Shown: one piece after another, positions 1 to 60,988 of the stretch
Layout: each line of letters starts with the position of its first letter
Position numbering within the stretch: the stretch's first letter is position 1
Source: Gemmatimonas sp.
GTDB lineage: Bacteria > Gemmatimonadota > Gemmatimonadetes > Gemmatimonadales > Gemmatimonadaceae
Reading direction: 5' to 3'
NCBI GenBank assembly: GCA_011390885.1
Contig: JAABRO010000043.1
Coordinates: 1-64,000 of the forward strand
DNA: 64,000 nucleotides
Translations under genes and position numbers: made by a program
Notes under the pieces: model-generated
The model's database searches: none
What the model was told of the DNA's origin: nothing
The model's input: the letters and a program-made list of their open reading frames with translations, nothing else

Positions 1-572
1 ACGAGCTCCTGCATGCGCGCGAGCTCCTCGGCCGTCGGCGCGCGGTTGGCGTAGCCGAGTTCGTGAATGCGCACCGTCGTCGCCCCCACGAAGCTCGCCA
101 CGTTCACGCTCACGCCCTTGGTGACCATGTGCTCGAGATACTCGCCCAGCGTCGTCCACGGGATGTCGAACCGGATGTCGCCCTGCTCCGCGAGCATCTC
201 GGCGCGCATCGTGTCGGTGATCGGTCCCATCGACGACCCTTCGCCGAACACCTCGAGCGTCACCCCCTGCATCACGTCACTCAGGCCGCGTCCGTCGTGC
301 AGCAGGCTCTCGGTGCCCCACGAGAGCATGTTGATGAAGCCGGGTGCGACGGCGAGCCCCGTCACGTCCACTTCGGTCGTGCCCTTCCATGCCGACGCAT
401 CGCCCACGGCGACGATCGAGTCGCCCACGATGGCCACGTCCCCGGTGATCGGCGCGCTGCCCGAGCCGTCGTAGATGGTGCCGCCCCGCAGCACGAGGTC
501 GGCCTGCTGCGTCGACTCGCAGGCGGTGAGGGTGAGCAGCGTGACGAAGGCGGCGAGGACCGAGCGGCGCAT
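1..572 (-). CDS. N-acyl-D-amino-acid deacylase family lipoprotein (partial)
   Basis: This is the N-terminal 190 residues of an exported amidohydrolase; the rest lies beyond the left edge. It starts MRRSVLAAFVTLLTLTACES, a lipoprotein signal with a lipobox ending in Cys18. After it comes the usual opening of the D-aminoacylase/dihydroorotase-like superfamily (ADLVLRGGTIYDGSG, then a small beta sandwich and LAVAPGFINM). The family hydrolyses N-acyl-D-amino acids or related amides with a Zn-dependent TIM barrel. Where most members have PGFID(x)H leading to the first metal ligands, this protein reads PGFINMLSWG, so the first metal-binding HxH seems to be missing; many exported family members share this. 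The metal-site residues that normally follow are outside the window. The ATG at 572 is chosen because it precedes the signal peptide. No neighbour suggests a specific substrate. Confidence 0.85.
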   Translation of the reverse strand, partial: MRRSVLAAFVTLLTLTACESTQQADLVLRGGTIYDGSGSAPITGDVAIVGDSIVAVGDASAWKGTTEVDVTGLAVAPGFINMLSWGTESLLHDGRGLSDVMQGVTLEVFGEGSSMGPITDTMRAEMLAEQGDIRFDIPWTTLGEYLEHMVTKGVSVNVASFVGATTVRIHELGYANRAPTAEELARMQEL

Positions 573-660
573 GGGGATCGGGGCGAGGGGGGGGAAGGAC
601 GATCAACGATGCGGCCCGCCCGCTCGGGGCGCCAGCGGGCAACCCAGAGGCGCGGGAACA

Positions 661-800
661 GCAACCGAGGGTTGGAGGAAATGAAGACGAACTGAAGGGG
701 AACAAGACACCGATGCTCGGCCGACGCGCCAGAGCGTCATCTCGCGTGCTCTTCTTGGTTCTTCTTCATTTCTTCCATCACTCGGTTGCCGTTGCGGTAC
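661..800. repeat. Long imperfect intergenic palindrome, copy A
   Basis: This 140-bp element lies between the D-aminoacylase start and the stop codon of the next minus-strand gene. Its ends are perfectly complementary (GCAACCGAG at 661-669, CTCGGTTGC at 781-789). The inner arms are AG-rich on the left (GGAGGAAATGAAG, then CTGAAGGGGAACAAG at 692-706) and CT-rich on the right (TTCTTCATTTCTTCC at 762-776). The same left-arm blocks recur in order in copy C at 60989-61127, with CTGAAGGGGAACAAG identical. The right arm ends 11 bp before the stop codon at 811. It could act as a transcription terminator or a REP-like element; there is no typical U-tract terminator here. The rest of 573-810 holds nothing else I recognise. 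Confidence 0.75.
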
Positions 801-810
801 TCCCGCCTCG

Positions 811-1083
811 CTACGCCAGGAACCGCCGGGCCACCTGCTCCAGCCGGTCGTCGCCGGCCGCCTCGGCCTCGACGAGCATCTCTTCCACGTACGGACGCAG
901 TGACGGCTCGCCCCAGTAGTAGCCCGTGGCCCGCTCGGCGAGCTGGGTCTCGCTCACGCGCGCCGCCTCGAGCAGAGCGCGCGCGGCGGCGCGGTCGTAC
1001 CCCGGATCGTCGCGCGGCGGCAGCCCGTAGTTGCGCCGAGGCATCTCGCCCTCGGCATCATCCCGCAGAAATGCTCGTGACAT
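811..1083 (-). CDS. Small conserved-looking hypothetical protein
   Basis: The protein has 90 residues and I recognise no family. It is hydrophilic and mostly helical, with repeated acidic and Arg/Ala-rich stretches and a PRRNYGLPPRDDPGYDRAAA segment near residue 15. There is no signal peptide or membrane segment. The start at 1083 is supported by GAGGAG seven bases upstream. The reading frame stays open further upstream, but only because of antisense GC bias across the DinB gene. It is divergent from the DinB-family gene at 1117, with a 33-bp gap that must hold both start regions. Intergenic palindrome A follows directly after its stop codon. Function unknown. Confidence 0.6.
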   Translation of the reverse strand: MSRAFLRDDAEGEMPRRNYGLPPRDDPGYDRAAARALLEAARVSETQLAERATGYYWGEPSLRPYVEEMLVEAEAAGDDRLEQVARRFLA

Positions 1084-1116
1084 GCACCATCTCCTCACCA
1101 GACGTACTGTTCCGGG

Positions 1117-1659
1117 ATGACCACCGACCTCGCCTCCCGCTTCCTCGAGCGCTCGCAGTATTACCTCGGCACCGAGTATCCCGCCAAGATCCGCGCGGCG
1201 CTCGCGACCATTCCCGCCGACCGCCTCTGGTGGCGCCCGAACGATTCGGCCAACAGCGCCGGCAACCTCGTGCTGCACCTCGCGGGCAATGTACGGCAGT
1301 GGGTGGTGAGCGGCATCGGCGGCGCACCCGACGTGCGGGCGCGCAGCGCCGAGTTCGCGGCCACCGGTGGCCAGGATCACGCGCAGCTGCTCGCGCACCT
1401 CGACGCCGCCTGCGCCGATGCCGTGGCCGTGATCGCCACCCTCGACGCCGACACCCTCGCGGCCACGCGCACCATCCAGGGGCGCGAGACCAGCGTGTTC
1501 TCGGCGCTGTACCACGTGGTGGAGCACTTTTCGGGACACACGGGGCAGCTCATTCTCATCGCCAAATGGCTCACACCCGCCGCGGTGCAGTTCTACGACG
1601 ACGCGGGTGGCCTCGCGCGCGCGACGTTCCTGCCGGACGGCGCGAGCGACATCGCCTGA
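1117..1659 (+). CDS. DinB-fold (DUF1572-like) putative metalloenzyme
   Basis: A 180-residue four-helix-bundle protein of the DinB/YfiT-like superfamily. These are cytoplasmic proteins with a three-His metal site; characterised relatives are thiol S-transferases (bacillithiol or mycothiol dependent) or are DNA-damage inducible. The expected ligands are visible as His54 (LVLHLAGNVRQW) and the HxxxH pair His137/His141 (VVEHFSGHTGQL). LVLHLAGN at the first ligand is typical of the DUF1572 branch. The length fits the family. The ATG at 1117 begins MTTDLASRFL; no strong ribosome binding site is seen. A second DinB protein lies at 62645-63139. The substrate cannot be inferred. Confidence 0.85.
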   Translation: MTTDLASRFLERSQYYLGTEYPAKIRAALATIPADRLWWRPNDSANSAGNLVLHLAGNVRQWVVSGIGGAPDVRARSAEFAATGGQDHAQLLAHLDAACADAVAVIATLDADTLAATRTIQGRETSVFSALYHVVEHFSGHTGQLILIAKWLTPAAVQFYDDAGGLARATFLPDGASDIA

Positions 1660-1719
1660 CCCGGTTCGCGACGCCGCGAGCCGACTCGACCGTTCGTCCT
1701 CCATACCGGGCTCTCCCGC

Positions 1720-2301
1720 ATGCGCACGTCCGCCCACGTTCGTTCGCTCGTCGCCGCATCGTGCCTGCTCACCATCCCGTTCGCCGACGCCATCGCAGGA
1801 TGCCCACGCTCCGGCGGCGAACAGGCGCGCCGCATCGTCTCGGCGGTCGCATTGCTTCCCGCCGCTCCGTTCATCCTTTCCCACAAGCCCCGCACCGCGC
1901 CGCTCCCCGCCGCCGGCGCCGCCGTGCGCGTGAGCCGGCGCGGCGCAGGGGATGCCGTCGACTTCGTGCGCGGCACGCTCGTCTCGCTCGACAGCGCCGC
2001 CGTGACCGTGGCGATCGGGGGCAACGTGGCCGAGCGCATTCCGATGACGTCGGTGCTGTGCGTGCAGGTGCCGCGTCGGAGCCGCGCTGCCGGCGCCGCC
2101 AGCGGCCTCGCGATCGGCGTGGCGAGCGGCGTAGCGGCGGCCGGCGTGCTCGCGCTCAGCGCATCCTCCGACGGGGAACAGCGGGAGGCGATGTCGGTCG
2201 GCGCCTTCCTGTTCGGCGCCATCGGCGGCATCGGTGGTACGCTCGTCGGCAGCGTCGTGCGTGCCACTGACTGGGATACGGCGATCGAAAACGCGCGCTG
2301 A
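1720..2301 (+). CDS. Hypothetical exported protein with glycine-zipper segment
   Basis: A 193-residue protein with an N-terminal signal-like segment (MRTSAHVRSLVAASCLLTIPFADAIA). A beta-rich middle (VRVSRRGAGDAVDFVRGTLV and VTVAIGG) resembles a small SH3-like barrel. Two Gly/Ala-rich hydrophobic stretches follow, near residues 127-150 and 160-180 (GAASGLAIGVASGVAAAGVL, FLFGAIGGIGGTLVGSVV), of the glycine-zipper kind found in envelope proteins. I do not recognise a named family. It probably sits in or near the envelope. It follows the DinB gene by 60 bp on the same strand, so they may be co-transcribed. A small GC hairpin at 2381-2399 lies downstream. Confidence 0.65.
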   Translation: MRTSAHVRSLVAASCLLTIPFADAIAGCPRSGGEQARRIVSAVALLPAAPFILSHKPRTAPLPAAGAAVRVSRRGAGDAVDFVRGTLVSLDSAAVTVAIGGNVAERIPMTSVLCVQVPRRSRAAGAASGLAIGVASGVAAAGVLALSASSDGEQREAMSVGAFLFGAIGGIGGTLVGSVVRATDWDTAIENAR

Positions 2302-2424
2302 GGCATCACGCGGGGGCGACGGCGCGGCGACGGCGCTTGTCCCTGCCCGTCTCCGGCGCGCATGTTGCGGAGCGTTCGACGCCGGCAGTCCGTGCCGGCT
2401 CCGCCATCTCCCGCCGTTCTACCC

Positions 2425-4104
2425 ATGCGCCTGCTTGTCGCCCTGCTCCTCGTGAGCCTCGGTACCGCCTCCCTGCCCGCTCAGGCCGCGAGCCGGACCT
2501 ATTCCGAGCTCGTCACGCTCTTTACAGCCTGGCGCGCCTTCGAGGAACCGCCGCGCGTGAACGGGGCGCCCGACTACTCGGCCACCACCAACGCGCGACG
2601 CCTCGACTCGCTGCGCGTGCTGCAGCAGCGGCTCGCCGCCATCGACACCACCGGCTGGTCCATTCGCGAGCAGGTGGACCACCATCTCGTGCGTGCCGAG
2701 ATGAACGGCATGCTGTATCACCTCACGGTGCTGCAGCCGTTCGCCCGCGACCCGGCCTACTACGCCTCGGTGCGCACGAGCGAGAGTGACACGCCCGCCG
2801 AGGAAGGCCCCACCATCCACGGCGCCGTGCGCCTCTGGCACTACGGCATCTGGCCGCGCACGGCGCTCGACACCGTCACGCCGCTCACCCCCGACGAGTC
2901 GCGCCGGCTCACCGAGCAGCTGCGCAGCGTGCCGCCGCTGCTGGCGCAGGCGCGCACCAACCTCGCCGGCGCGAACGCGCGCGACCTGTGGGTAGGCGGC
3001 GTGCGCGCCTTCGAGGAGCAGGACGAGGCGCTGGCCACGCTCGCCGAGCGCGTGGGCACGCGCAACCGCGAGCTCGTGCGCGCGATCACCGAGGCGCGCG
3101 CTGCCACCACGCAGTTCGCGCAGTGGCTGCGCGACGAGTCGCCGACGAAGACCGGCCCCTCGGGCATCGGCAAGGAGCAGTACACGTGGTTCCTCAAGAA
3201 CGTGCTGCTCGTGCCCATGAGCTGGGAGGAGGAGGTCACGGTCTCCCGTCGCGAGCTGGCGCGCGCGCACGCCTCGCTCCGACTGGAGGAGACGCGCAAC
3301 AAGGGGCTCCCGGCCATGAAGGTCGCGCAGACGCAGGCGGAGTACTCGGCCATGCAGAACGAGGCGCTGCCGCGCTACCTGCGCTTCATGGAGGAGAAGC
3401 AGATCCTCACCATGGAGCCGTGGATGGAGCGCGCGCTGCGCGAGCGCCTCACCAACTTCATTCCCGAGGCGAACCGCAACTTCTTCTACCAGACCACGCA
3501 CCGCGACCCGATCCCGCTCTGGACCCATCTCTACCACTGGTGGGACAACATGCGCATTCGCGTGGCGCCGCATCCGAGCCCCATTCGCCGTGGCCCGCTG
3601 CTGTACAACGTGTGGATGAGCCGCGCCGAAGGCATGGCCACCGTGATGGAAGAGTGGATGATGCACGCCGGCCTCTACGACCAGAGCCCGCAGTCGCGTG
3701 AGATCGTGTGGATCATGCTCATCACGCGCGCGGCGCGCGGCCTGGGCAACCTGTACGCGCACAGCAACGACCTCACCATGCAGCAGGCCGGCGACATCCA
3801 CGTGAGCTGGACGCCGCGCGGCTGGATGCGCCGCGATCCCCTGCTCGGCTTCGAGCAGCACCTGTACCTGCGTCAGCCCGGCTACGGACCGAGCTACGTG
3901 ACCGGCGGCCGCCTGCTCGAGGAGGTCATGGCCGAGCGCGCGCGCCAGCTCGGCGACACCTTCACCATGAAGCGATTCTTCGACGAACTGAACTCGGCCG
4001 GCATGATTCCCGTATCGCTCATCTACTGGGAGCTCACCGGCGATGATCGCATGATCCGCGAACTCGCCATCGACGCGGGGCCGCTGCCGTTCCGGGCCCG
4101 GTAG
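2425..4104 (+). CDS. Exported DUF885-like protein
   Basis: A 559-residue protein with a clear signal peptide (MRLLVALLLVSLGTASLPAQA, cleavage near residue 21). The start at 2425 is chosen because it gives this signal directly; an upstream in-frame ATG at 2362 would add an Arg-rich tail. The long helical body (TLAERVG, TRNRELVRAITEARAATTQF, MKRFFDELNSAG) and an EGMATVMEEWMMHAGLYDQ segment resemble the EGWA region of DUF885, a family of M32-like helical proteins, several annotated as exported peptidases. The HExxPGH-type metal motif of active DUF885 members is not visible; the equivalent region reads LWTHLYHWWDNMRIR. The protein may be a divergent or non-peptidase member. It is conserved in length and ends with an ELAIDAGPLPFRAR tail. 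Confidence 0.7.
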   Translation: MRLLVALLLVSLGTASLPAQAASRTYSELVTLFTAWRAFEEPPRVNGAPDYSATTNARRLDSLRVLQQRLAAIDTTGWSIREQVDHHLVRAEMNGMLYHLTVLQPFARDPAYYASVRTSESDTPAEEGPTIHGAVRLWHYGIWPRTALDTVTPLTPDESRRLTEQLRSVPPLLAQARTNLAGANARDLWVGGVRAFEEQDEALATLAERVGTRNRELVRAITEARAATTQFAQWLRDESPTKTGPSGIGKEQYTWFLKNVLLVPMSWEEEVTVSRRELARAHASLRLEETRNKGLPAMKVAQTQAEYSAMQNEALPRYLRFMEEKQILTMEPWMERALRERLTNFIPEANRNFFYQTTHRDPIPLWTHLYHWWDNMRIRVAPHPSPIRRGPLLYNVWMSRAEGMATVMEEWMMHAGLYDQSPQSREIVWIMLITRAARGLGNLYAHSNDLTMQQAGDIHVSWTPRGWMRRDPLLGFEQHLYLRQPGYGPSYVTGGRLLEEVMAERARQLGDTFTMKRFFDELNSAGMIPVSLIYWELTGDDRMIRELAIDAGPLPFRAR

Positions 4105-4153
4105 GCCGCGGCCGAAGCTGCACGCTGGACTTCCAGCACGGATCCCCGATATT

Positions 4154-4241
4154 CGAGGGAGCGACGGAGACGGCGGACGCCGGTGCTGGCGTCGCTCCCG
4201 ACCTCGCGGTCGGACACTCCCGGTCGCTCCCTCGATGGAGG
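4154..4241 (+). promoter_or_regulatory. Structured leader with alternative hairpins before cupin lipoprotein
   Basis: The segment at 4154-4165 (CGAGGGAGCGAC) is perfectly complementary to 4223-4234. Its core 4157-4166 can instead pair with 4190-4199 (CGTCGCTCCC), giving a 10-bp stem. Between these is an independent hairpin CCGACC-TCGC-GGTCGG at 4198-4213. The two large pairings exclude each other. The distal one ends three bases before the Shine-Dalgarno sequence GGAGG (4237-4241) of the gene at 4246. This layout is what an attenuator or a translational switch looks like. I recognise no known riboswitch class. It may also be a simple stable 5' UTR. Confidence 0.5.
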
Positions 4242-4245
4242 TCCC

Positions 4246-4941
4246 ATGCGCACCACCCCGATCGTCCTGCTCGCCGCCCTGACTCTTGCCTGCGGCGGCG
4301 AGCGCGCGCCAGACGCCGAGACGCCCGCCGATTCGACCACGGCCGCCGCGCCCGATCCGCGCGCCAACGTCTTCTCGAACGCGTACGCGGAGGCGTTCAC
4401 CATCACGCTCGCGCCGGGGCAGGCGCTGCCCGCACACGACGGCGGCGCGCGCACGGTCTATGCGCTGAGTGACTACACCATTCGCTACACGCAGGGCGGT
4501 GAGACGAGCGAGCAGTCGTGGAAGGCCGGCGAGGCGCACTTCCACGACGCGGGCGAGCACGCCATGGAGAACATCGGCACGACCGAGGCGAAGTTCCTCG
4601 TGGTGGCACGCACCGCCCAGACGCTGGCGCCGAGCGAACCGCACCCGGAACCCAACGCCCCGTCAGGTAGCGGCCCCATGCAGCTCCTGCTCGACAATGA
4701 CCAGGTGCGCGTCTCGGAAGTGCGCATGCCTCCGGGCGCCGAACTGCCGCGTCACCCCGGGCTTGCACGCCTGGTGTACTCGCTGAGCGACTACACCATC
4801 GGCTACGCCTCCAACGACGCCGCGGCGGAGACGCAGTCGTTCACGACCGGCCAGGCGCACTGGCACGAGGCGGACGAGCACGTGATCACCAACACCGGCA
4901 GCACCGAAGCGCGCTTCCTGCTCGTGCAGTTCAAACGCTGA
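4246..4941 (+). CDS. Two-domain cupin-like lipoprotein
   Basis: A 231-residue protein with a lipoprotein signal MRTTPIVLLAALTLACGGE (lipobox LTLAC, Cys17), so it is probably membrane-anchored outside the cytoplasm. The mature part is a tandem duplication of a cupin-like unit. The first spans about residues 40-125 (ITLAPGQALPAHDGGARTVY, LSDYTIRY, GEAHFHDAGEHAMENIG). The second spans about 145-231 (EVRMPPGAELPRHPGLARLV, LSDYTIGY, GQAHWHEADEHVITNTG). Each unit has a HxH...H cluster (HFHDAGEH, HWHEADEH) as in metal-binding cupins. GGAGG sits five bases before the ATG. Its role is unknown; a scavenging, sensing or binding function is possible. It ends 90 bp before the convergent tenA. Confidence 0.75.
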   Translation: MRTTPIVLLAALTLACGGERAPDAETPADSTTAAAPDPRANVFSNAYAEAFTITLAPGQALPAHDGGARTVYALSDYTIRYTQGGETSEQSWKAGEAHFHDAGEHAMENIGTTEAKFLVVARTAQTLAPSEPHPEPNAPSGSGPMQLLLDNDQVRVSEVRMPPGAELPRHPGLARLVYSLSDYTIGYASNDAAAETQSFTTGQAHWHEADEHVITNTGSTEARFLLVQFKR

Positions 4942-4943
4942 GC

Positions 4944-5027
4944 AAACCGCGAAATGCGGCATCGTTCCTCGATGCCTTGTTTCGTCTTCCTCTTCTTCAG
5001 CTCGTCTTCTCCCACTCGGTTGCGGTG
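4944..5027. repeat. Intergenic palindrome family, degenerate copy B
   Basis: Between the convergent cupin and tenA stop codons lies a CT-rich right arm that ends CTCGGTTGCGGT (5015-5026), five bases before the tenA stop. It resembles the right arms of copies A and C (CTTCTTCAG, then CTCGGTTGC). The left side is short: GCAAACCGCGAAATG (4942-4956) may be a left arm with an internal deletion. A hairpin GGCATC-N7-GATGCC (4958-4976) occupies the centre; the same GGCATC...GATG pair is seen at the centre of copy C. The alignment of the left side is uncertain. Confidence 0.55.
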
Positions 5028-5031
5028 TCCG

Positions 5032-5709
5032 TCAGCTGACGGACACCGGCCACGCCTCCCGGCGCCACGCCGAATCCCAGAACATCCACTCGTATACCAC
5101 CGAGCGGTCGTACGCCGCGATCATGCGCGACCGCTCGGGCGCTCCCGCCGCATCCCACGCCGCATCGGCCGCCGACTCGGCCGCGAGCACGGCGTCGCCG
5201 AACGCCGGGTCGCTGTACGTTGCGATCCACGCCGCGTATGGATTGCCCGGACGCTCCTCCGCCGCGAGCCGGAGCCCCACGTCGTAGTACACGCGGAAGC
5301 ACGGGAGCACCGCCGCCGTGCCCACCGCATAGCCATCGCGGTGCACACTCGTGTGCAGGAAGTCGGTGTAGGCCTGGCAGCTCGGCGACGCCATCGCGCG
5401 CGCCGCCTCGCCGGCATCGATGCCGAACTGCGCGAAGAACCCGCCGTGCAGCTGCCGCTCCACCACGATCGCGCCCTCGGTCGCGCGCGAGAACTGCAGC
5501 ACACGCTCGGCGTCGGGCGCGCGCGCCGCGAGCGTGGCGAGCACGCGGCCGTACTCCACGAGGTAGAGCGCGTCCTGCACCACGTATTGCGTGAAAATCG
5601 CGGCGTCGAGCGAGCCATCCACGAGCGCGCGGTTGTACGGATGCGCAAGAATGCGCTCGAGCATCGGCGCGCTGCGCGCGCGCATGATGGCCGAAAATCC
5701 GGCGTTCAT
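5032..5709 (-). CDS. tenA: TenA family thiaminase II / aminopyrimidine aminohydrolase
   Basis: A 225-residue all-helical TenA protein. The family hydrolyses aminomethyl-pyrimidine breakdown products, or thiamine itself, so the pyrimidine part can be salvaged. Family features are HPYNRALVDGSLD near residue 22, FTQYVVQDALYLVEYGRVLA with the Asp and Tyr residues that line the pyrimidine pocket, YTDFLHTSVHRDGYAVGTAAVLPCFRVYYDVG near 105-135, and the C-terminal YEWMFWDSAW. A Cys in VLPCFRVYYDVG fits the position of the TenA nucleophile seen in many members, shifted relative to the classic Bacillus Cys135. GAGGG precedes the ATG at 5709. It starts 10 bp after the thiM stop, so the two form an operon under the TPP riboswitch. 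Confidence 0.93.
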   Translation of the reverse strand: MNAGFSAIMRARSAPMLERILAHPYNRALVDGSLDAAIFTQYVVQDALYLVEYGRVLATLAARAPDAERVLQFSRATEGAIVVERQLHGGFFAQFGIDAGEAARAMASPSCQAYTDFLHTSVHRDGYAVGTAAVLPCFRVYYDVGLRLAAEERPGNPYAAWIATYSDPAFGDAVLAAESAADAAWDAAGAPERSRMIAAYDRSVVYEWMFWDSAWRREAWPVSVS

Positions 5710-5719
5710 GTGCGCGCCC

Positions 5720-6562
5720 TCACGAGAGCCGCGCGCGCGACGCGAGCGTGTCCACGTCGAGTGTGTACAGCGCGTCGAGCAGCGCCACCTGCAGCGAGCC
5801 GGGGCCCGCCGCCTGCGCCGCCGCCAGCTCGCCGGCCACGCCGAAGATCGCGAGGGCCGCCGCCGCCGCATGCAGCGCATCGCGCTCCACGGCGAGGCAC
5901 GCGCCGGTCACGGCGGAGAGCGAGCAGCCCAGGCCGGTCACGCGCGGCATGAGCGCGTGGCCGTTGCCGCAGCGCACAACACGCGCGCCATCCGTCGCGA
6001 TGTCCTCGGCGCCCGTGATCACCACCGTGGTGCCATGGCGCTGCGCCAGGATCGTGGCCGCCTCCAGCGCCGCCTCGCTGCCGGCGGTGGAGTCCACCCC
6101 CTTGGTGCCGCCCACGTCGCCGGCCACCGCGAGGATCTCCGACGCATTGCCGCGCAGCACCGTGGGACGCAGCGCGAGCAGCGCGCGCGCCGTGTCGGTG
6201 CGATACGCCGTCGCGCCAGCGCCCACGGGATCGAGCACCCACGGAATGCCGCGCTCGCCCGCGCGCACCGCGGCGCGCTGCATGGCACTCACCCACGACG
6301 GCGAGAGCGTGCCGATGTTCACCACCAGCGCGGACGAGATCGACGTGAAGTCCTCGACCTCTTCGAGCGCGTGCACCATCGCCGGCGACGCACCCAGCGC
6401 GAGCAGCGCGTTGGCCGAGTTGTTCATCACCACGTAGTTCGTGATGTTGTGCACGAGCGGTGCCGCGGCGCGCACGCCCGTGAGCGTGCGAAGCGCGGCG
6501 GCAACGAGCGGCTGTGATGCAGGGACGCGTGCGGTCGCGTCCGACGAGCTGACGTCGGTCAT
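5720..6562 (-). CDS. thiM: Hydroxyethylthiazole kinase
   Basis: A 280-residue ribokinase-like enzyme that phosphorylates 4-methyl-5-(2-hydroxyethyl)thiazole with ATP for thiamine salvage. Signature segments are PLVHNITNYVVMNNSANALLA (thiazole site and cis elements), GASPAMVHALEEVEDF, GIPWVLDPVGAGATAYR, LRGNASEILAVAG, and the C-terminal VTGLGCSLSAVTGACLAV, where GCSLSA(V)TGA is the anion hole with a Cys in the ThiM-typical position. I chose the ATG at 6562 because GGGAGG lies four to nine bases upstream, inside the end of the riboswitch; a 7-codon extension to 6583 would begin inside the aptamer. With tenA it makes a compact salvage operon controlled by thiamine pyrophosphate. Confidence 0.95.
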   Translation of the reverse strand: MTDVSSSDATARVPASQPLVAAALRTLTGVRAAAPLVHNITNYVVMNNSANALLALGASPAMVHALEEVEDFTSISSALVVNIGTLSPSWVSAMQRAAVRAGERGIPWVLDPVGAGATAYRTDTARALLALRPTVLRGNASEILAVAGDVGGTKGVDSTAGSEAALEAATILAQRHGTTVVITGAEDIATDGARVVRCGNGHALMPRVTGLGCSLSAVTGACLAVERDALHAAAAALAIFGVAGELAAAQAAGPGSLQVALLDALYTLDVDTLASRARLS

Positions 6563-6567
6563 GTGGC

Positions 6568-6643
6568 CTCCCTTCGCCGGCATTACCCGGTGCAGGTTCG
6601 ACGGGTCTGATCTCAGCCCGCGTCATTCGCGCGGGCACCCCAT
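6568..6643 (-). promoter_or_regulatory. TPP riboswitch (THI element)
   Basis: On the minus strand the sequence has all hallmarks of the thi-box: a P1/P2 start GGGGTGCCC, the hairpin GCGCGAATGACGCG, the invariant GGCTGAGATCAGACCC (CTGAGA at 6611-6616), the GAACCTG block, and the closing GGGTAATGCCGGCGAAGGGA. TPP binding to this fold represses downstream expression. The GGGAGG ribosome binding site of thiM (6567-6572) overlaps the last bases of the aptamer. With no separate terminator in the four bases before the start codon, the control is most likely at translation initiation. Confidence 0.95.
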
Positions 6644-6880
6644 GGCAGAGTGTGCAACGTCATCGGTGCGCGGAGTGGAGTCAATCCCGGTCCGTGGTGG
6701 CACGACGAGTGTGCATCGCGCGAGCACGGCGTCCTGTCCGTACCGATTCCGTGAAGCCGCCCCGCCAGCCGGTACATCGATTACGTTTATCAGAAGGGGC
6801 GCGCAAAGCGGCGTGTCCGAGCGCCGCATGCCCGCCGTTCCATTGGGCGATCACCGCAGCACACCCACCCAGGAGCCCGC

Positions 6881-7420
6881 GTGATCCCGTCCGTCTCGCT
6901 CGAGTCCACCACCGCCCGCGACACCTCGTCGTCGCTGAGCTTCCTCTCGTCCCATCGCGCCGTCAGCGTCTGCACGCGTGAGCTCGCCCGCCTGTCGGAT
7001 GCACTCACGGCCGCCGCCACCGTCTTCGCGCGCGAGCAGGGCTACGAGCCACCCACCACACGTCGCGCCCCGGATCGCTGCATCGTGCAGCTCGGACCGG
7101 TCGCCCTCACGGCCGCGTGGCTGCGCAACGGCAGCGATTCGCCCGTGGCCGGCGAGCTCATGACGATCGTGTGGCGCGGCATCATCGCCCCCCGCGGCGA
7201 TCATCTCCCCGAGCGGCTCGGCGCACGCTACGTGCCTACGCCCCCGGTCGAAGTGTGGGAGTCGACCTTCGTTGCCTCCGCCGCCAGCGAGGCCACGTGG
7301 CAGTGGCACGAGGACGACCGCGAGCAGCCCGGCATCTCCTCGATCGACCTGGCGGCCCTCTGCATGGCGCAGCTGCGCCAGGCGCTCGCCGACACGCCAC
7401 CGCAGGCGATCGCCGTCTGA
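6881..7420 (+). CDS. Hypothetical protein
   Basis: A 179-residue protein without signal peptide or membrane segment; I recognise no family. It is an alpha/beta protein with a hydrophobic beta segment IVQLGPVALTAAWLRNG near residue 70, GELMTIVWRGIIAPRGDHLPER near 95, and an acidic, Trp-containing stretch EATWQWHEDDREQPGIS near 145. It may be a small structural or regulatory protein. The GTG start at 6881 has AGGAG ten bases ahead. The 239 bp between the riboswitch and this gene carry nothing else I can support. It ends at a GC-rich hairpin shared with convergent argG. Confidence 0.6.
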   Translation: MIPSVSLESTTARDTSSSLSFLSSHRAVSVCTRELARLSDALTAAATVFAREQGYEPPTTRRAPDRCIVQLGPVALTAAWLRNGSDSPVAGELMTIVWRGIIAPRGDHLPERLGARYVPTPPVEVWESTFVASAASEATWQWHEDDREQPGISSIDLAALCMAQLRQALADTPPQAIAV

Positions 7421-7427
7421 CACCGGT

Positions 7428-7456
7428 GCGGACCGGGCGCTCGGCGCCCGGTCCGC
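7428..7456. terminator. Bidirectional hairpin between convergent genes
   Basis: Perfect 13-bp stem GCGGACCGGGCGC with a 3-nt loop, lying entirely between the stop codon at 7420 and the argG stop at 7463. There is no clear T-tract on either side, so its terminator role is inferred from stability and position. Confidence 0.7.
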
Positions 7457-7462
7457 GTGACC

Positions 7463-8938
<1,476 letters not shown>

Positions 8939-8951
8939 TCAGGGTTCACGG

Positions 8952-10103
8952 GTGTCCACTTCGACTGACCTCGGCCTGCCGGGCGCCCTGCCGGCGCGCG
9001 ACCGCGCGGCCCTCCGGCGCTGGCTCTTCGCGTCCATCATCGCCGTCTTCCTGGCGGTGGCCGTGGGCGGCATCACCCGGCTGACCGAGAGCGGCCTCTC
9101 CATCACCGAGTGGAAGCCCGTGTCTGGGGTGCTCCCGCCCATGAACGAGGCGGCGTGGCAGGTGGAGTACGAGAAGTTCCTGCAGATCCCGCAGGCCAGC
9201 ACGACGCACGCCGGCATCACGCGCAGTGCGTTCAAGTGGATCTTCTGGTGGGAGTGGTTCCACCGCATCGTGGCGCGCAGCGTGGGACTCGTCTTCGCGA
9301 TCCCGTGGCTGCTGTACATGGTGCAGGGACGCATCCCGCGCGCCCTGCGCCTCCGCCTCACCGCGCTGCCGCTGCTCACGCTCGCACAGGGCGCGCTCGG
9401 CTGGTACATGGTGCAGAGCGGCCTCGTGGAGCGCTCGAGCGTCAGCGCCTACCGCCTCACGGCGCACCTCGGACTCGCGCTCGGCATCCTGGCCGTGTGC
9501 GTGTGGACGTACAGCGAATTGCGCGAACGCTCCCGCCAAGAGCTGGACGAGTCGGCGAACACCTCGCACGGCTGGCGCCTTGGATTGCTCGGGGCGACGG
9601 CGCTGCTCGGCGTGACGGTGCTGTCGGGCGGGTTCGTGGCGGGGCTCCGGGCCGGGAAGATCTTCAACGAGTTTCCGCTCATGGGTGGTCGCGTGGTGCC
9701 CGCGGGGTACGCGACCATTGCGCCGTGGTGGGCGAACGCAGCCGAGAATCCCGTGGCGGCGCAGTTCCATCACCGTACGCTCGCGATCGTGGTCACGCTG
9801 CTCGTGCTCACGCTCGCGTGGCGTGCGCGGCACGCCGCGTTGCCATCGCTCGTGCGGCGTGGCGCACAGGCATTCGGCGCCGTGGTGGCGCTGCAGCTCG
9901 TGCTCGGCGTGACCACGCTGCTGCTCGCCGTGCCGATCCCGCTCGGTGTGCTGCATCAGTTCACGGGCGTGCTCGCGCTCACGGCTGGACTCGTGGCGAC
10001 GCAGCGGGCGATGGCGACGGCGCGCGCGCTGCCCGCGGCACCGTCGCCCGTCGAGCGACCGGCAACTCGTGAAGCCGTGATGGAGCCGGCGACGACGTAC
10101 TGA
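8952..10103 (+). CDS. ctaA: Heme A synthase (COX15/CtaA family)
   Basis: A 383-residue integral membrane enzyme that oxidises the C8 methyl of heme O to the formyl group of heme A, needed for aa3-type cytochrome oxidase. About eight membrane helices are visible. The paired His ligands appear in the family motifs: GGITRLTESGLSITEWKPVSG near residue 40, WWEWFHRIVARSVG (His about 103), YRLTAHLGLALG, AAQFHHRTLAIVV and GVLHQFTGVLALT. EWKPVSGVLPP is characteristic of the alphaproteobacterial/mitochondrial COX15 type. The GTG start at 8952 is chosen at the first plausible start before the conserved helix; the frame remains open upstream but overlaps argG. Its presence implies aerobic respiration with heme A. 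Confidence 0.93.
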   Translation: MSTSTDLGLPGALPARDRAALRRWLFASIIAVFLAVAVGGITRLTESGLSITEWKPVSGVLPPMNEAAWQVEYEKFLQIPQASTTHAGITRSAFKWIFWWEWFHRIVARSVGLVFAIPWLLYMVQGRIPRALRLRLTALPLLTLAQGALGWYMVQSGLVERSSVSAYRLTAHLGLALGILAVCVWTYSELRERSRQELDESANTSHGWRLGLLGATALLGVTVLSGGFVAGLRAGKIFNEFPLMGGRVVPAGYATIAPWWANAAENPVAAQFHHRTLAIVVTLLVLTLAWRARHAALPSLVRRGAQAFGAVVALQLVLGVTTLLLAVPIPLGVLHQFTGVLALTAGLVATQRAMATARALPAAPSPVERPATREAVMEPATTY

Positions 10104-10124
10104 GCGCGCCGGCCCGGTGGTGGC

Positions 10125-11186
10125 TCACATGTCGACGTCGGCGATGCAGCAGCCGACGCCGCAGGTGAACCAGGCCAACGCAGACTCGCTGTTCAAGGCC
10201 TGCGCGAGGAGGGTCAACCGCGCCATCACCGCCTCGGTGCCCGCCGACTTGCTGCCGACCGCGCCCTGGCCCGCTTCCACGAACGCGTTTGTGGCGTTGA
10301 CGATCCAGCCCAGCTCGCCCTCCGGAGCGCTGTCCACGACGGCCGGATTCGTGGCCACGAAGGCACGGAGAGCATCCATGACGTCCGCATCCCGGGCGAT
10401 CTCGTCCACCGTCTCCTGGGCTTTGCATGACAGGAAGCCGGCCCAACCGAACTTGTTCTTCACCGCATGGCGATGCGCGCACCAGCGGACGTCTCCCTCG
10501 ATCGAGAGCTTCTCGATGATCGGCGTGCCTGACTTGGGACCGCGAATCCCGTAGAGCGACCACCGGGCGACGCGACGGCTGGGGCCGATGCGTGCGACGT
10601 CCTTGTGCTCCTGCACATCCATGGCATCGAAGTCGTGCGCTACGAGGAAGAAGTTCTCATCCATGCCGTCCGCGACTGCGCTGCTGAGGCCGTACACGCT
10701 GTCGACGGTGGAGTTCTTCCCGACCGTGAAGATCGCCAGGACCTGCGCCCGTCCTCCCACGAGTTCGCGCAGTGCGATCTCTCGTGGCGCCATGACCGAC
10801 GACAGGGCAAGTCGCGCGTTGCGCTTGCCTTGCTTGTCCTTTCGCGGCACCGCCTTGTTGCGGAACTCGACGCGCGTGTCCCTGAGATAGGGCGCGAGGG
10901 TCACCGACTGATTGTCAGCAAGTTCAGGGAGAGTCGCGAAGGCACCGACGCAGTTCGTTCCGCAGGACGAACCGGACGCCAACGAGTCATGCAGGCCGAT
11001 CCGGCTGTAGTCGAACACTGCCCCGGCCTCGTGTGTCGCCGGCAACTCCGACGAGGCCAGCGCGCCAGCGGTCGTCGCTCCAGCCGCGCGCCCATCGCCC
11101 TCTTCGACCGAGGCGTCACCACCGCCGCAGGCGACTCCGCTGATCACGAGCGCGCCGATGGTGACCATCCGTGCCATGCTGTTCAT
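10125..11186 (-). CDS. Cys-containing lipoprotein coupled to the upstream kinase
   Basis: A 353-residue lipoprotein (MNSMARMVTIGALVISGVACGGG, lipobox SGVAC). I recognise no family. Visible features are a SGSSCGTNCVG pair near residue 72, a central basic segment (NKAVPRKDKQGKRNARLA), a KNKFGWAGFLSCKA segment near 255, and a Cys cluster at the extreme C-terminus (WFTCGVGCCIADVDM). The even number of cysteines suggests disulfides outside the cytoplasm. Its ATG overlaps the TGA of the Ser/Thr kinase as ATGA (11183-11186), so translation is coupled. A sensor, ligand or substrate for the kinase's extracytoplasmic part is a reasonable guess. By eye the gene is less GC-rich than its neighbours. It converges with ctaA. 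Confidence 0.7.
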   Translation of the reverse strand: MNSMARMVTIGALVISGVACGGGDASVEEGDGRAAGATTAGALASSELPATHEAGAVFDYSRIGLHDSLASGSSCGTNCVGAFATLPELADNQSVTLAPYLRDTRVEFRNKAVPRKDKQGKRNARLALSSVMAPREIALRELVGGRAQVLAIFTVGKNSTVDSVYGLSSAVADGMDENFFLVAHDFDAMDVQEHKDVARIGPSRRVARWSLYGIRGPKSGTPIIEKLSIEGDVRWCAHRHAVKNKFGWAGFLSCKAQETVDEIARDADVMDALRAFVATNPAVVDSAPEGELGWIVNATNAFVEAGQGAVGSKSAGTEAVMARLTLLAQALNSESALAWFTCGVGCCIADVDM

Positions 11187-14100
11187 TGCGATGCTCCGAG
11201 CGTTGGAGGAGAGAGCAGCGGACGCGCGCGCTGCGACCAGCGACGCGCCGCTTCGTCGGTCGGGCGCTGCGCGTCCAGGGAGTCCAGCAACCACAAGGCG
11301 CGGCGCAGGCCGGCCGCCTGCGCCACATAGTCGAGTGTATATCCACTCATGCCGGCGATGTCATCGAAGGCGGCCCGCAAGTCGGCGTGCGCCTGCGCGC
11401 TGTCCCCCGCCTGCACGAGCACCCACGCCTCGGCGAACACATAGTCCCAGGTGACCGAACTGCTCGAGGCACCCACACGCTGCTGCCGAAGGGCGCGCAT
11501 GCGGTCGCGTACCTCCTCGCGTCGTCCGGCAGCGAGCGCACGGTGTGCCTCATCGAGCAGCGTGCGTGCGGGGAACGATGTCACGAGCTCCGGCCCAAGG
11601 CACGGCACCGCATGCCGCAGCGCCGGCACCACCACCTGGTCCCGGACGCGCGTCGTGTCCGCGTCCGGCACGCTGGCGCGCACGGCCGCATCGAGGCGCG
11701 CCCTGCTCTTCGGCAACCGGGCGCACTGGCCGGTGACCGCCAGCACCGTGTACTCGTGCACGGCGTCGACGAGCGGGCGGGGCAGCTCCGAACCGGCCAG
11801 ATCCGGCGTCGCGGCGAGTGCACGCACCGTGTCGCCGATCAGTGCCGCGAGCGGCGCGAGCGTGGCGCCGACGCCAGGTACGGCGAGCAGGTTGGTGTCG
11901 CGCAGCGCGGCACGCGCGTGGTGTGCCGCCGAATCGAACTCCGTCCGCCGCAGGGCAAGCCGCACGCGCAGCACCGCCAGCTGTGCGCGCTGCTCCGCTG
12001 TATTCACCGCGCTGCTCGCCCGCCGCAGCGCGTCATCGACCGACGCCTCCGTGCCGCCCTGTCGACGCAGTTGGCCTGCCAGCTCCAGCGCCGCCGCATG
12101 CTCGAGCCAGCCGGCCGCCGACTTGGGGTCGCGCTCGACCCAGCGGCGCGTGAGGTCGAGGGCGAGCAGGCGTGCCCGGCGAACCGCGGCCGTGAAGGTC
12201 ACCGGTACCGCCGCCGCTCCTCCGGCCTCGAAGACCGCTCGGGGGATCGGCACGAACTCGATCGTATCGTCGCGAAGCGCCGGCAATGCGCGATACTCGG
12301 CACGCCCCGGCGTGGTCTGCCACCCACTTCGGGCCCGATGGCCCTGCGCGAACGTGGCCGCCCGGATGCTCGGATAGACCGCCGCGAGCCACGCGGACGA
12401 CGGAGCCGATTCGATCGCCTGCCGGTACGCCCGCAACGCCGCCCAGATGCTGCTCCGATAGCGGAGGCCACCCGCGTCACCAATGACGACCGTGTCGAGG
12501 CGGGTACATTCGCCCAACCCGAACCAGGCGACATACGACGCGGGATCTTCGGTGATCGCCAGCCGATAACTGTCACAGGCCCCCGCCGTTTCCGCCTGCG
12601 CCAGCCGTTGCAGGCCGTGCACGAGGTGGCCAGCCAGCTCGGACTCACTCGCCGTGGACGCCGCATGGTCCGCCAGCCCCCGCCAACTCGCCCGATCGCG
12701 CGGCCGGAGCCACGACGCCACCTGCGCCGCCCAGAAAGCGGCGTCACCGAAGGCCGGCACCTCGGCGTGCACGCGCCGGAAGCTCGCTTCGGCACTGTCC
12801 AGCGCGCCGGCCCGCAGTTGGCGATGTCCGTCCACGTACGCCCGCAACGCTGCGAGCGAGCGCGATGGCAGGACCGCAAGGCCGGGCGTCTCCGCCGCCG
12901 TCGCCCCGGCGAGCACCTCGCGCACGAGCCGCGCGGTGAGCGCGCGCAGCGCCTCGTCACTGCTGAGCAGTCCGATGGCCGCCAGCTGACGCGGCGGCTC
13001 GGCGCCACGTGTCACGGTCAGCCGCACGCGCACGGAATCGCCGAGCGGCGTCGCCGATGACACCAGACGCCACGCGCTCGCTGGGGCGCTCGCCGTGGCG
13101 ACATGCACCTCCGGCCACGCGCCGAGCTCGGCCTCCAGCGCCCCCCGTACGCGCTGCGCGAGCGTGTCGTCGCGTGGCGAGGTCAGCGCGATCGTCAGCC
13201 CCTCGACAGGGGCCGATGACGCGGACGCGACGTCGGACCACGCGCCCCACCAGCGGCTCGCGCCCCACCCGACGATCAGCAGGAGCGCCGACGCCAGGAG
13301 CACGCCTCGGGCACGCAGCCCGCCCGACCCCGCAGCACGCCGGCCCGACACGCTCGCCGAGGATCGCGAGCCGCCCATGCTCGCCGACGCCATGGCATGG
13401 GCCCCGGTACCTGGCACCCGATGCTCACCGGACATCGCAATGCCGAGCGCCGACAGGAATGCGGTCATGTCCCGGAAGCGGTCGGCGGGCACCGGAGCGA
13501 GCGCCACCTGCAACGCCTGCTCGATCGCCTCTGGCACCGCGGCGCGATGTGTGCGCACACCCATCGGGGCCGCCGCCATGCGTTGCAGCCGCAGCCCCTC
13601 CACCGTGCGTGCCGTTTGCGCCGGCACGCCCGCGAGCATTTCGTACAACACGAGCGCCAGCGAGTACTGGTCCGAGCGCGCGTCCACGGCAGGATCTGCG
13701 CAGAGTTGCTCCGGACTCATGTATTGCGCGGTGCCCACGGCCAGTCCGGCGCTTGTGAGGCGCTGCTGGAGCGCCTCGGGCTCGGAGAACGCCACCCCGA
13801 AGTCCGCCAGCAGGGCCGTGCCCTCGCGCAGCAGGATGTTGGCGGGCTTCACGTCGCGATGCACCACGTCATGCGCGTGCGCGAACGCGAGCGCCAAGCC
13901 AACCTCCCGCGTGACCTGCAGAGCATCGGCGATCGGCAACTGCGGGTCTCGCGCGAGTCGATCGGCGAGAGTCCCGTCCGGCGCCAACTCCACGACCAGA
14001 AACGGACGCCCCTCGTGCACGCCCGTGTCCTGCACATGCAGGATGTGCGGGTGTTCGAGCGCCGCGGTCAGGCGAATCTCGCGCTGGAACCGCGCCACCA

Positions 14101-14398
14101 CATTGTCGGAGAGCGAATCCGGACGGAGCAACTTCACCGCCACGTCCCGCTCCAGGCGCTGATCACGCGCCCGGTACACGGACGCGTGACCGCCCCGCCC
14201 GATCTCCTCGAGCAGCAGGTAGCGATTCGCAAGCAGCGGCGCGGACGTCACGGCGGGGCGGGGCGGGAGGAGGGAGCGCGTCCCCACGCTCGCGGAACGC
14301 GCCGATTCAATATGCGCAACATCCGGCGTTCCAGCACGCGCCCGCACAGATCGGGCGACCCCTCGGATTCCTCTATGGGCAGCGCAGCTTTTTCGCAT
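11183..14398 (-). CDS. Transmembrane Ser/Thr protein kinase with large C-terminal TPR-like domain
   Basis: Up to 1071 residues. A Hanks-type kinase domain covers about 60-325, with glycine loop GRGGHASV (67-74), VAVKLL with Lys89, HRDVKPANIL with catalytic Asp182, DFG at 199-201 and MSPEQ near 230, so it looks active. A Ser/Gly-rich linker leads to one membrane helix near 365-380. About 690 C-terminal residues should then be outside the cytoplasm; they contain repeated helical pairs rich in Ala, Leu and Arg (LRAYVDGHRQLRAGALDSAE, ALRAYRQAIESAPSSAW) like tetratricopeptide repeats. The start is uncertain: ATG 14398 gives the longest form, while GTG codons at 14287 or 14251 place the start nearer the kinase domain. 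No strong ribosome binding site decides it. It is coupled to the lipoprotein gene downstream. Confidence 0.88.
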   Translation of the reverse strand: MRKSCAAHRGIRGVARSVRARAGTPDVAHIESARSASVGTRSLLPPRPAVTSAPLLANRYLLLEEIGRGGHASVYRARDQRLERDVAVKLLRPDSLSDNVVARFQREIRLTAALEHPHILHVQDTGVHEGRPFLVVELAPDGTLADRLARDPQLPIADALQVTREVGLALAFAHAHDVVHRDVKPANILLREGTALLADFGVAFSEPEALQQRLTSAGLAVGTAQYMSPEQLCADPAVDARSDQYSLALVLYEMLAGVPAQTARTVEGLRLQRMAAAPMGVRTHRAAVPEAIEQALQVALAPVPADRFRDMTAFLSALGIAMSGEHRVPGTGAHAMASASMGGSRSSASVSGRRAAGSGGLRARGVLLASALLLIVGWGASRWWGAWSDVASASSAPVEGLTIALTSPRDDTLAQRVRGALEAELGAWPEVHVATASAPASAWRLVSSATPLGDSVRVRLTVTRGAEPPRQLAAIGLLSSDEALRALTARLVREVLAGATAAETPGLAVLPSRSLAALRAYVDGHRQLRAGALDSAEASFRRVHAEVPAFGDAAFWAAQVASWLRPRDRASWRGLADHAASTASESELAGHLVHGLQRLAQAETAGACDSYRLAITEDPASYVAWFGLGECTRLDTVVIGDAGGLRYRSSIWAALRAYRQAIESAPSSAWLAAVYPSIRAATFAQGHRARSGWQTTPGRAEYRALPALRDDTIEFVPIPRAVFEAGGAAAVPVTFTAAVRRARLLALDLTRRWVERDPKSAAGWLEHAAALELAGQLRRQGGTEASVDDALRRASSAVNTAEQRAQLAVLRVRLALRRTEFDSAAHHARAALRDTNLLAVPGVGATLAPLAALIGDTVRALAATPDLAGSELPRPLVDAVHEYTVLAVTGQCARLPKSRARLDAAVRASVPDADTTRVRDQVVVPALRHAVPCLGPELVTSFPARTLLDEAHRALAAGRREEVRDRMRALRQQRVGASSSSVTWDYVFAEAWVLVQAGDSAQAHADLRAAFDDIAGMSGYTLDYVAQAAGLRRALWLLDSLDAQRPTDEAARRWSQRARPLLSPPTLGASQ

Positions 14399-14474
14399 TT
14401 GCCAGGTGCGCGGCGCGACGTGATGCTGTAGGGGTGGTCATCCACGGCCACGTCACCGCCTGCCCGGAGGTCGC

Positions 14475-14975
14475 ATGTCTCCCTTCCCGCTCGAGGACGG
14501 CGCCACGACCGTCGCCGCGTTGACGCCGCGCCGCGATGTGACGCGCGGCGGCGAGCTGACGCTCGATGCCCGACACGAGCAGCTGGAGGAGCTGCACCTC
14601 GCCATCGCGAACCTCGCGCACGAATCCGTCAGCGCGCCACGCGAGGAGATCGAGCACGCCAGCGTCGACCCCGCCCACGCGCGCCTTGCGCGCGCACTCG
14701 ACGAGTTGGGCACGACGTTGCGGCGCGCGCGACGCGTGTTCGACGCCCTGCTCGACGCCATGCCGTCCACGCAGCGGCGCGACCAGCTGCAGGCCATTGC
14801 CATGCTCTCGCGCCAGCACGACGAAGCGGTGCGCGACCTGCACGAGGCGCAGATGGCGCTGCTCGACGGCTCGGCCGTGGCTGTGCGCATCCGGCTCGCG
14901 CGCGTCTTCCACGCGATCGGGCGCGCCGAGCAGATGCACTTCTACCTGCGGTCGCCACGCGCGGCGCGCGGCTGA
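14475..14975 (+). CDS. Hypothetical helical protein
   Basis: A 166-residue soluble protein, almost wholly helical with heptad-like stretches (RHEQLEELHLAIANLAHESV, ARALDELGTTLRRARRVFDA, QLQAIAMLSRQHDEAVRDLH), probably a short coiled coil. No signal peptide or catalytic motif is visible. GGAGG four bases before the ATG makes the start firm. It is divergent from the kinase, and converges with the nhaR-like gene with only 15 bp between stops. Function unknown. Confidence 0.65.
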   Translation: MSPFPLEDGATTVAALTPRRDVTRGGELTLDARHEQLEELHLAIANLAHESVSAPREEIEHASVDPAHARLARALDELGTTLRRARRVFDALLDAMPSTQRRDQLQAIAMLSRQHDEAVRDLHEAQMALLDGSAVAVRIRLARVFHAIGRAEQMHFYLRSPRAARG

Positions 14976-14990
14976 GCACCGCGCTCGCCG

Positions 14991-15887
14991 TCAGGCCACG
15001 ACGAGCTGTCGTGCGATCGCCTCGACGATGCGTGAGGTCTCGGCGTCCAGCTTGCGTCCCACGCTGACCGCGTAGTACAGCACGCGCGCGCCGCCCACGA
15101 GCCCCACGGGCTTCACCCCATACCGCTTCGCCGCATCCTCGGCGGCCGCCATCGGCAGGGCGAACAGGCCGTGCCCCGCCGTGCCGAAGGCCTTGAGCAG
15201 CGCGCTGTCGTCCACTTCGGCCACGAGCCGCGGGTGGATCCCCTCCACGGCCAGCCAGGCGTCGACCATCTGCCGCAGCACCGTGCCCGAGGAGGGGAGC
15301 AGGAGCGGCGCGCCATCGAGGGAGTGCGGGAAGCCGCGCTTGTACGCTTTCACCAGCGCCGGCGTGCCGAAGACGGCGATGTCCGATTCGCCCACCGCGT
15401 GGGCGCGCCCCTTCACACGACCGGTGGCCGGCGCATCGAGCAGCACGAGGTCGAGTGTATGGTCGTCCAGTGCCTCGAGCAGCGTGTCCTGCGCACCCTC
15501 TCGTACCACGAGGCGCGGAGCATCCTCGAGCGACAGCACGGGCGTGAGGAACCGGTGGACCAGCAGCTTCGGGATGCCGTCGGTCACCCCCACGCGGAAG
15601 GGGCGCGTGCGCCCGGTGGGCAGGCCGGCGAACGCATCGTGCACCTCGCGCTCGAGCGAGAACACCTCCTCCGCGAAGCGCACGAGCAGCCGTCCGGCGT
15701 CAGTCAGCCGGCGCTCCTTGCCTTCTCCTTCAAAGAGCGGCACACCCACGGCCAGTTCGAACAGCCGGAGCTGCGCGCTGACCGTGGGCTGCGTGAGGTT
15801 GAGCACGCGCGCGGCCGCCGTCACGCTGCCCGTCCGGGCAACGGTCCAGAAGTAGCGCAGATGGTTGTAGTTCACCGACGTGAGCAT
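14991..15887 (-). CDS. nhaR: LysR-family transcriptional regulator, NhaR-like
   Basis: A 298-residue LysR-type regulator. The N-terminal winged helix (residues 5-65: NYNHLRYFWTVARTGSVTAA, RVLNLTQPTVSAQLRLFE) opens with the NYNHLYYFW pattern typical of NhaR, which in E. coli activates Na+/H+ antiporter and other envelope genes in response to Na+. A periplasmic-binding-protein-like effector domain follows (VGVTDGIPKLLVHRFLTPVL, LVLLDAPATGRVKGRAHAVG, GLFALPMAAAEDAAKRYGVK). No antiporter gene lies nearby, so targets and inducer here are unknown. The ATG at 15887 is 48 bp from the stop of the upstream same-strand gene, so it may be the last gene of a short operon. Confidence 0.85.
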   Translation of the reverse strand: MLTSVNYNHLRYFWTVARTGSVTAAARVLNLTQPTVSAQLRLFELAVGVPLFEGEGKERRLTDAGRLLVRFAEEVFSLEREVHDAFAGLPTGRTRPFRVGVTDGIPKLLVHRFLTPVLSLEDAPRLVVREGAQDTLLEALDDHTLDLVLLDAPATGRVKGRAHAVGESDIAVFGTPALVKAYKRGFPHSLDGAPLLLPSSGTVLRQMVDAWLAVEGIHPRLVAEVDDSALLKAFGTAGHGLFALPMAAAEDAAKRYGVKPVGLVGGARVLYYAVSVGRKLDAETSRIVEAIARQLVVA

Positions 15888-15935
15888 GCGGCACCCGGAA
15901 TGTGTCGGCCACGCACCGTGGCCCGCCCGGGAAAT

Positions 15936-16502
15936 CTACCGATCGCCGCAGACGCCGGGGACGAACTCTCGCATGGCGAGCAGCACCGCACCGGTCACAT
16001 CCACCTCGGCGGCGATTGCGCGAGCGGGACCCAGCGTCGAGACATCGAGGATCGCGTGCCAGCGATCGCGTGCCCGCACCCGCTCCATCGCCTGCTGCAC
16101 GCAGGCCGTGAGCGGCCCCTCCAGCGCTTCCCGCTTCTCGCGCATCGTCTGGTTCAGCTGCTGCACCATGTCCTCGAGCTGCAGCTCGCGCGCCCTGAGC
16201 GTGAGCATTGCGGCCTCGCGCTGCATCGGCGCCATCTCGTGCTGCCGCGACGCGAACCAATCCAGGGCGGCACGCAGCGTATCCGACGCCAGCCGGACGC
16301 GCGTGTCGGCCAGACGGACCTCATCGTTCAGGCGCACCTCGGCCTGTTCGCGCGCGGGGATCGAATCGAAGAGCACCGCTGCGCGCACGAAGGCAATCCG
16401 CGGTGCGGCCGGGCCTCGACCCGCCCCCTGCGCCTGCGCGGTCGACGCGACCGCGCCGAACAGCACGACGGCGCAGGTCGCAACGCGCGCGAGCCGCGTC
16501 AC
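15936..16502 (-). CDS. Skp/OmpH-like exported protein
   Basis: A 188-residue protein with a signal peptide (MTRLARVATCAVVLFGAVASTAQA). The mature part begins with the Skp/OmpH pattern APRIAFVRAAVLFDSIPARE, followed by a long charged helical segment (about residues 55-130, many E, R and Q), as in Skp periplasmic chaperones that carry outer-membrane proteins. The C-terminal beta segment (HAILDVSTLGPARAIAAEVDVT) also fits, matching the strand that closes the Skp body. The Skp assignment is by pattern, not certain. Its ATG overlaps the previous stop (ATGA at 16499-16502), so it is translated together with the small membrane protein upstream. Confidence 0.7.
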   Translation of the reverse strand: MTRLARVATCAVVLFGAVASTAQAQGAGRGPAAPRIAFVRAAVLFDSIPAREQAEVRLNDEVRLADTRVRLASDTLRAALDWFASRQHEMAPMQREAAMLTLRARELQLEDMVQQLNQTMREKREALEGPLTACVQQAMERVRARDRWHAILDVSTLGPARAIAAEVDVTGAVLLAMREFVPGVCGDR

Positions 16503-17210: not shown

Positions 17211-18418
<1,208 letters not shown>

Positions 18419-18422
<4 letters not shown>

Positions 18423-60938: not shown

Positions 60939-60988
60939 TGCACGAGCCCGTTGCGTGCACGGCCCACAAAGCGACCGGCACGGCAGAC

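Follow-up and report, generated by a model that had tools for sequence, protein, structure and literature searches.

Long palindromes after stop codons in Gemmatimonas: a lineage-specific family with shared sites and species-specific arms

Three intergenic elements of a Gemmatimonas genome, named A, B and C here, belong to a lineage-specific family of palindromes, and on a reading that we hold with about even confidence they are hairpins closing transcript 3' ends from either side, likeliest as a bidirectional terminator or an exonuclease barrier. They lie in a stretch of 64,000 nucleotides, called the window here, which covers bases 1-64000 of contig C43 in the 4.07-Mb, 62-contig genome (G000) of a host that we take to be a soil bacterium.

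Copies in the window

Copy A reaches from 647 to 809 at its full extent, with arms at 657-692 and 758-793 in which 31 of 36 positions are paired, a loop of about 65 nt, and pairing that continues outward through 647-665 and 791-809. Copy C is a palindrome at 60989-61127, with arms at 60989-61050 and 61059-61127 around an 8-nt loop, (GCAACN)n hexamers outermost and weaker pairing that reaches about 60977-61145. The blocks that the initial annotation had reported as common to A and C are all present and in identical order; they form the 5' purine-rich arm of A (661-706, plus strand) and comprise GCAACCGAG at 661 and 61001, GAAATGAAG at 678 and 61018, and the 15-mer CTGAAGGGGAACAAG at 692 and 61031, the last with no other occurrence in the window. 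Both copies also fold back on themselves as had been claimed, with RNA folding energies of -71 kcal/mol for A (z -6.7) and -83.5 kcal/mol for C (z -11.2), which none of the shuffles equalled. Among the long inverted repeats of the window C ranks first (score 32.4) and A second (23.5), and the best score in 60 shuffles of the window averaged 16.8 and reached 23.0 at most, so that by pairing alone C stands far above chance and A barely above it. A covariance model of the family matched A at 654-796 (E 1.5e-18, A being among the model-building copies) and C with E 3.7e-22.

Copy B had been taken for a degenerate third palindrome. It is a family member, but what is left is a single pyrimidine-rich right arm (4980-5026, plus strand), and the sister species G060 has a complete palindrome at the matching locus (G060:C238) whose right arm is 85% identical to B. 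Of the full copy that the sister species has, only the right arm survives here as B. The left half is absent, its place being occupied by a cupin-like gene (4246-4941, plus strand, Pfam match below cut-off), and the truncated end of B carries a small local hairpin at 4950-4984 (CGAAATGCGGCATCG / CGATGCCTTGTTTCG).

The three elements had been described as lying after the stop codon of a minus-strand gene, and such stops do adjoin them: that of a gene for 90 amino acids with no Pfam match (811-1083) abuts A, that of a TENA/THI-4 gene (5032-5709) abuts B, and a beta-lactamase-family gene (61167-62609) ends 40 nt after C. The strand is incidental, since the elements are palindromic and B and C, each in a convergent gap, also adjoin a plus-strand stop, that of the cupin-like gene at B and that of a short-chain dehydrogenase gene (60048-60938), which ends 51 nt before C. 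No Rfam family was matched at the sites of A, B and C at gathering thresholds, and a scan for canonical promoters and terminators in window positions 1-20000 stayed at chance level. The sole Rfam match of the window was a TPP riboswitch (RF00059, 61 bits) at 6552-6652 on the minus strand, upstream of the genes for hydroxyethylthiazole kinase and TENA.

Copies and structure in the genus

The genome and its relatives were searched with the covariance model, as the initial annotation had proposed, and positions were tabulated against stop codons; further copies were found in the same context. The suggestion of a lineage-specific, REP-like repeat at gene ends was borne out by additional copies here and in two of four congeners, nearly all of them after stops. 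BLAST of the own genome gave additional copies on contigs C9, C16, C20 and C33, and a pattern search with the family ends gave 12 palindromes in the congener G024. The covariance model, built from eight G024 and six own copies, matched at least six full copies in the own genome, which has B besides, at least about 20 in G024 (about 22 matches, some of which are halves), at least about 14 in G060, whose genome is incomplete (64%), a single weak one in G050 and none in G059; all counts are lower bounds from 150 candidates scored per genome, in MAG assemblies of varying completeness. The model-building copies match by construction, and most G024 copies and all G060 copies were outside the model. 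An exact outer-arm pattern run over 84,980 species matched only the Gemmatimonas MAG S07.Bin085, which is a lower bound given the narrow pattern. One convergent gap in G024 (C56:27739-28152) has three copies in tandem, two of them full and the third weaker, at a spacing of 143 bp.

The units are 110-280 bp long with stems of about 30-110 pairs, and their ends are constant, with GCAACNGAG in most copies and at least one GCAACN hexamer outside it in many. In an alignment of 14 sequences 90% of the cells pair, and pairing falls to 37-51% when the partner columns are slid by 1-3. Changes on both sides were found in 13 of 31 pairs and in 25 cells (6.4 and 9.7 in shuffles, with none of 500 as high). 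The structure was derived from the same alignment, which favours the percentage paired and less so the two-sided changes. Pairing is maintained by covariation.

The purine-rich arm comes first (5') in all 41 copies examined, a polarity that is partly built in since the search model favours purine-first copies. A strict rule of this kind is weakened by pyrimidine-first palindromes, which an unbiased scan found in G016 and G022 and which occur in the own genome as well, where a palindrome of a second family (L168:2071-2186, at G000:C33:106470) is pyrimidine-first and lies between convergent genes.

Placement at gene ends

Genes were called with a home-made codon-bias caller and no annotation. 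Both neighbours were called for 41 copies, of which 24 sit in convergent, 15 in co-directional and 2 in divergent gaps (one of the latter doubtful). As a baseline, gaps of at least 60 nt were counted in stretches sampled from eight genomes, and of these 329 gaps 38 are convergent (12%) and 101 divergent (31%). The convergent excess (24/41 vs 38/329) has p about 7e-13, and 21 of 38 copies remain convergent when tandem neighbours are collapsed by hand. Co-directional copies lie closer to the upstream stop than to the next start (one doubtful gene call). Mostly commonplace genes surround the own copies, among them those for GcvP, CoaE, MacB/FtsX permeases, a tRNA-synthetase-like protein, a TonB receptor, TENA, hydroxyethylthiazole kinase, a short-chain dehydrogenase and a beta-lactamase-family protein.

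Palindromes can extrude as cruciforms, and the strong convergent bias would also suit a site that works at the DNA level between convergent genes, where supercoils meet, as a cruciform or as a target of a nucleoid protein or topoisomerase. We consider such a site improbable, for the species have no long protein-like motif in common other than GCAACCGAG and a scatter of arm positions, and the purine-first polarity favours, though not strictly, an RNA strand.

Sites and arms in sister species

Matching loci in other genomes were identified from flanking-gene matches. The loci of A and of the C9 and C16 copies carry a palindrome at the matching G060 locus (three of six own full sites), the B locus has its complete palindrome there, the C33 copy has one at the matching G024 locus, and three further site pairs of G024 and G060 carry palindromes in both. 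Sharing of at least four of seven sites has a probability of about 0.002 even with only about 200 convergent gaps, by rough gap counts. G024 has no element at locus A, and G060 has one in the convergent gap that corresponds to positions 7421-7462, where the window has none. Arm similarity within genomes was 29 in G000, 37 in G024 and 45 in G060, compared with 16-23 between genomes; at matching sites it was 10-29, with averages of 15-22, no higher than for random between-genome pairs (seven pairs). The arm sequences cluster by genome, not by site. Shared sites with arms that are alike within a genome point to sites that were kept with homogenisation inside each genome, or to the same sites having been re-seeded repeatedly.

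The main rival of the RNA 3'-end reading is a selfish element tolerated at gene ends, and both the gain and loss of copies and the presence of tandem copies agree with it. The palindromes would then be non-autonomous mobile elements of MITE or REP kind, found after stops since selection removes the others, with pairing as a requirement of the mobilising enzyme, and the placement after stops could reflect merely where insertions are tolerated. This is a serious possibility, though the smaller chance in our judgement. Copy number differs between sister species, matching sites are empty in one species and filled in another, neighbouring copies are near-identical in G024 (C29, 7842/8000; C56, 27889/28032), and the G024 copy at C29:36926-37050 has a 20-bp direct repeat (CACCTCACGTCGTCGCGCCG) on either side, a duplication-like flank seen at no other copy. 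Against mobility, several sites are common to different species, and the initial idea of a substrate for an unseen transposase found no backing: the Y1 (RAYT) transposase PF01797 was detected in none of the five genus genomes (G060 being only 64% complete) by a search that was positive in E. coli and four others, no transposase family was matched among 14 flanking-region proteins near own copies, and the flanks gave no general sign of target-site duplication, their longest shared stretch being 6.6 compared with 6.2 for mismatched pairs. No TA is conserved at the element ends in the alignment. Homologues of SbcD, a nuclease that cuts long palindromes, are present, above the cut-off in one of five genomes.

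Arm words and wider relatives

The arms are strings of words of 6-12 nt. Several G060 copies have an extra outer shell of GACGCGAAGG-like words, which lengthens the palindrome to as much as about 280 bp, and one 301-nt G060 stretch has a folding energy of -239 kcal/mol. In the own genome GACGCGAAGG-like words form separate palindromes on C7, C19 and C33, and at C33:179304 one convergent gap contains both the nine-mer and the inner words, ordered as they are in G060, below the palindrome threshold used. This second own family (C7:75832-75952, C33:139113-139244, C19:5069 and C3:4467) is built of GCGAAGGCGCGAAGGGCGCGA words, which are those of the outer shell of G060 copies. A 211-bp hairpin with unrelated arms (GTCCACGGGGTGGGGGCGGG) lies on C3 (L164:1845-2055), 38 nt past a plus-strand gene, in a stretch with a folding energy of -188 kcal/mol.

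Arms made of such word strings and nested shells would also be expected from mutation alone, in which quasi-palindromes are perfected by template-switching during replication and purine-rich words multiply by slippage, with neither function nor mobility, and the local extension of pairing into the flanks of A fits this as well. A purely mutational product nevertheless leaves unexplained why the same long words occur at unlinked loci of one genome and why convergent gaps are preferred, and we regard it as quite unlikely.

With the covariance model run over 148 genomes of the family, matches were obtained in 34 genomes from 14 of 35 genera. Twelve inspected loci of other genera carry long hairpins made from other words, e.g. 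AAGCAGAGAG, GACTGAAGAAGG and GAAGACGAG, some with nested word shells, and the weak matches there may be analogous rather than homologous, the model being rich in purine words. In the unbiased scan of 864 kb sampled from eight genomes, long palindromes numbered 24 (G016 alone having 17 of them), against none in shuffles; they lie mostly at gene ends, some being pyrimidine-first. Tandem nine-mers of GACGCAGAGG type (GACGCAGAGGACGCAGAG) occur at 113 places in G016 and at 15-33 in each of G034, G096 and G174, with none for the reversed pattern. One palindrome of another genus (G039:C270:4246-4342) has the same GCAACYGAG ends, with arms of GATTAAGTGAGG.

Proposed role

A bidirectional RNA 3' end is preferred because position, symmetry, covariation and site sharing are all explained by it. 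The transcribed palindrome would form a hairpin at 3' ends, between convergent genes or after operons, the RNA would be the working form, and the hairpin would stop RNA polymerase or protect the 3' end. Copies within a genome may be kept alike by gene conversion or by re-seeding. The same gene ends with different words in sister species suggest working RNA hairpins that are kept alike in each genome by copying. For the terminator family that the initial annotation had listed as an option, position and structure fit, and termination itself is predicted. No U-tract follows the stems (0-5 T per 8-nt window, mostly 2-3), and this lack (at most 5 T in 8) speaks against a 3'-end role, as do stems far longer than termination needs, the gain and loss of sites, and G050 and G059, which hold almost none. 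By nearest-neighbour values of a published hybrid set, the RNA:DNA hybrids of the 3' arm are weaker than those of the 5' arm and of random window stretches; a purine arm followed by a pyrimidine arm would give a weak hybrid during transcription of the second arm, which could replace the missing U-tract.

We tentatively go further and suggest a class of gene-end palindromes in Gemmatimonadota whose sites are inherited and whose arms are rewritten as a set in each species, with nested shells of purine-rich words (GCAACN, GACGCGAAGG, GAAGACGAAC), bidirectional 3' ends formed with no U-tract, and concerted evolution with no transposase; taken as a whole this is speculative and may well prove wrong. 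If it is true, a poorly studied phylum ends many genes with a repeated, fast-changing hairpin and not with U-tract terminators, gene ends that carry different palindromes from one sister species to the next offer natural replicate experiments, and the question is raised how copies in a genome stay alike with no recognisable transposase.

Comparison with known systems

The usual terminator stem is far shorter than the stems of about 30-110 pairs found here. Intrinsic terminators, including bidirectional ones, resemble the elements in having a hairpin right after the stop and an enrichment in convergent gaps, but here the family sequence is repeated and the U-tract of a canonical intrinsic terminator is missing.

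REP/BIME elements of the GTAG and CGTC families are 20-40 bp long with an unpaired tag, and the GTAG families are tied to RAYT transposases (PMC3733652). They are likewise repeated palindromes found mostly downstream of genes, between unidirectional or convergent ORFs, are species-specific and have a suspected RNA role (PMC3733652). The present elements share the downstream and convergent placement (24/41) but not the REP/RAYT size, tag or transposase, being 110-280 bp long with no conserved GTAG/CGTC tag outside the stem, in a genus whose genomes gave no Y1 transposase. ERIC/IRU (127 bp) and other bacterial MITEs are A+T-rich and mostly have a target-site duplication and TA at their ends (PMC2229807). 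The likeness lies in imperfect, non-coding intergenic palindromes of 100-150 bp with a suspected transcribed hairpin (PMC2229807), whereas here the ends are GC-rich, hexamer number varies and shared sites have differing arms; the general target-site duplication of MITEs such as ERIC, Correia and RUP is lacking, with the one 20-bp repeat as exception.

Inverted repeats are enriched downstream of bacterial stop codons in general, and in the accessible parts of two surveys the position relative to genes is the same as here, the repeats there being short and perfect (PMC13155455, PMC6060812). Those parts describe no layered families, and 'Gemmatimonad' is absent from the text of PMC13155455. No description of this palindrome family was found in the open-access literature searched, which is weak evidence given that scope. 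Nor did that literature describe repeats of this length, nested shells of words, sites common to several species with arms peculiar to each, or the absence of the transposase and duplication that usually accompany such repeats. The elements behave like REP and ERIC repeats, yet by these comparisons they stand outside both classes.
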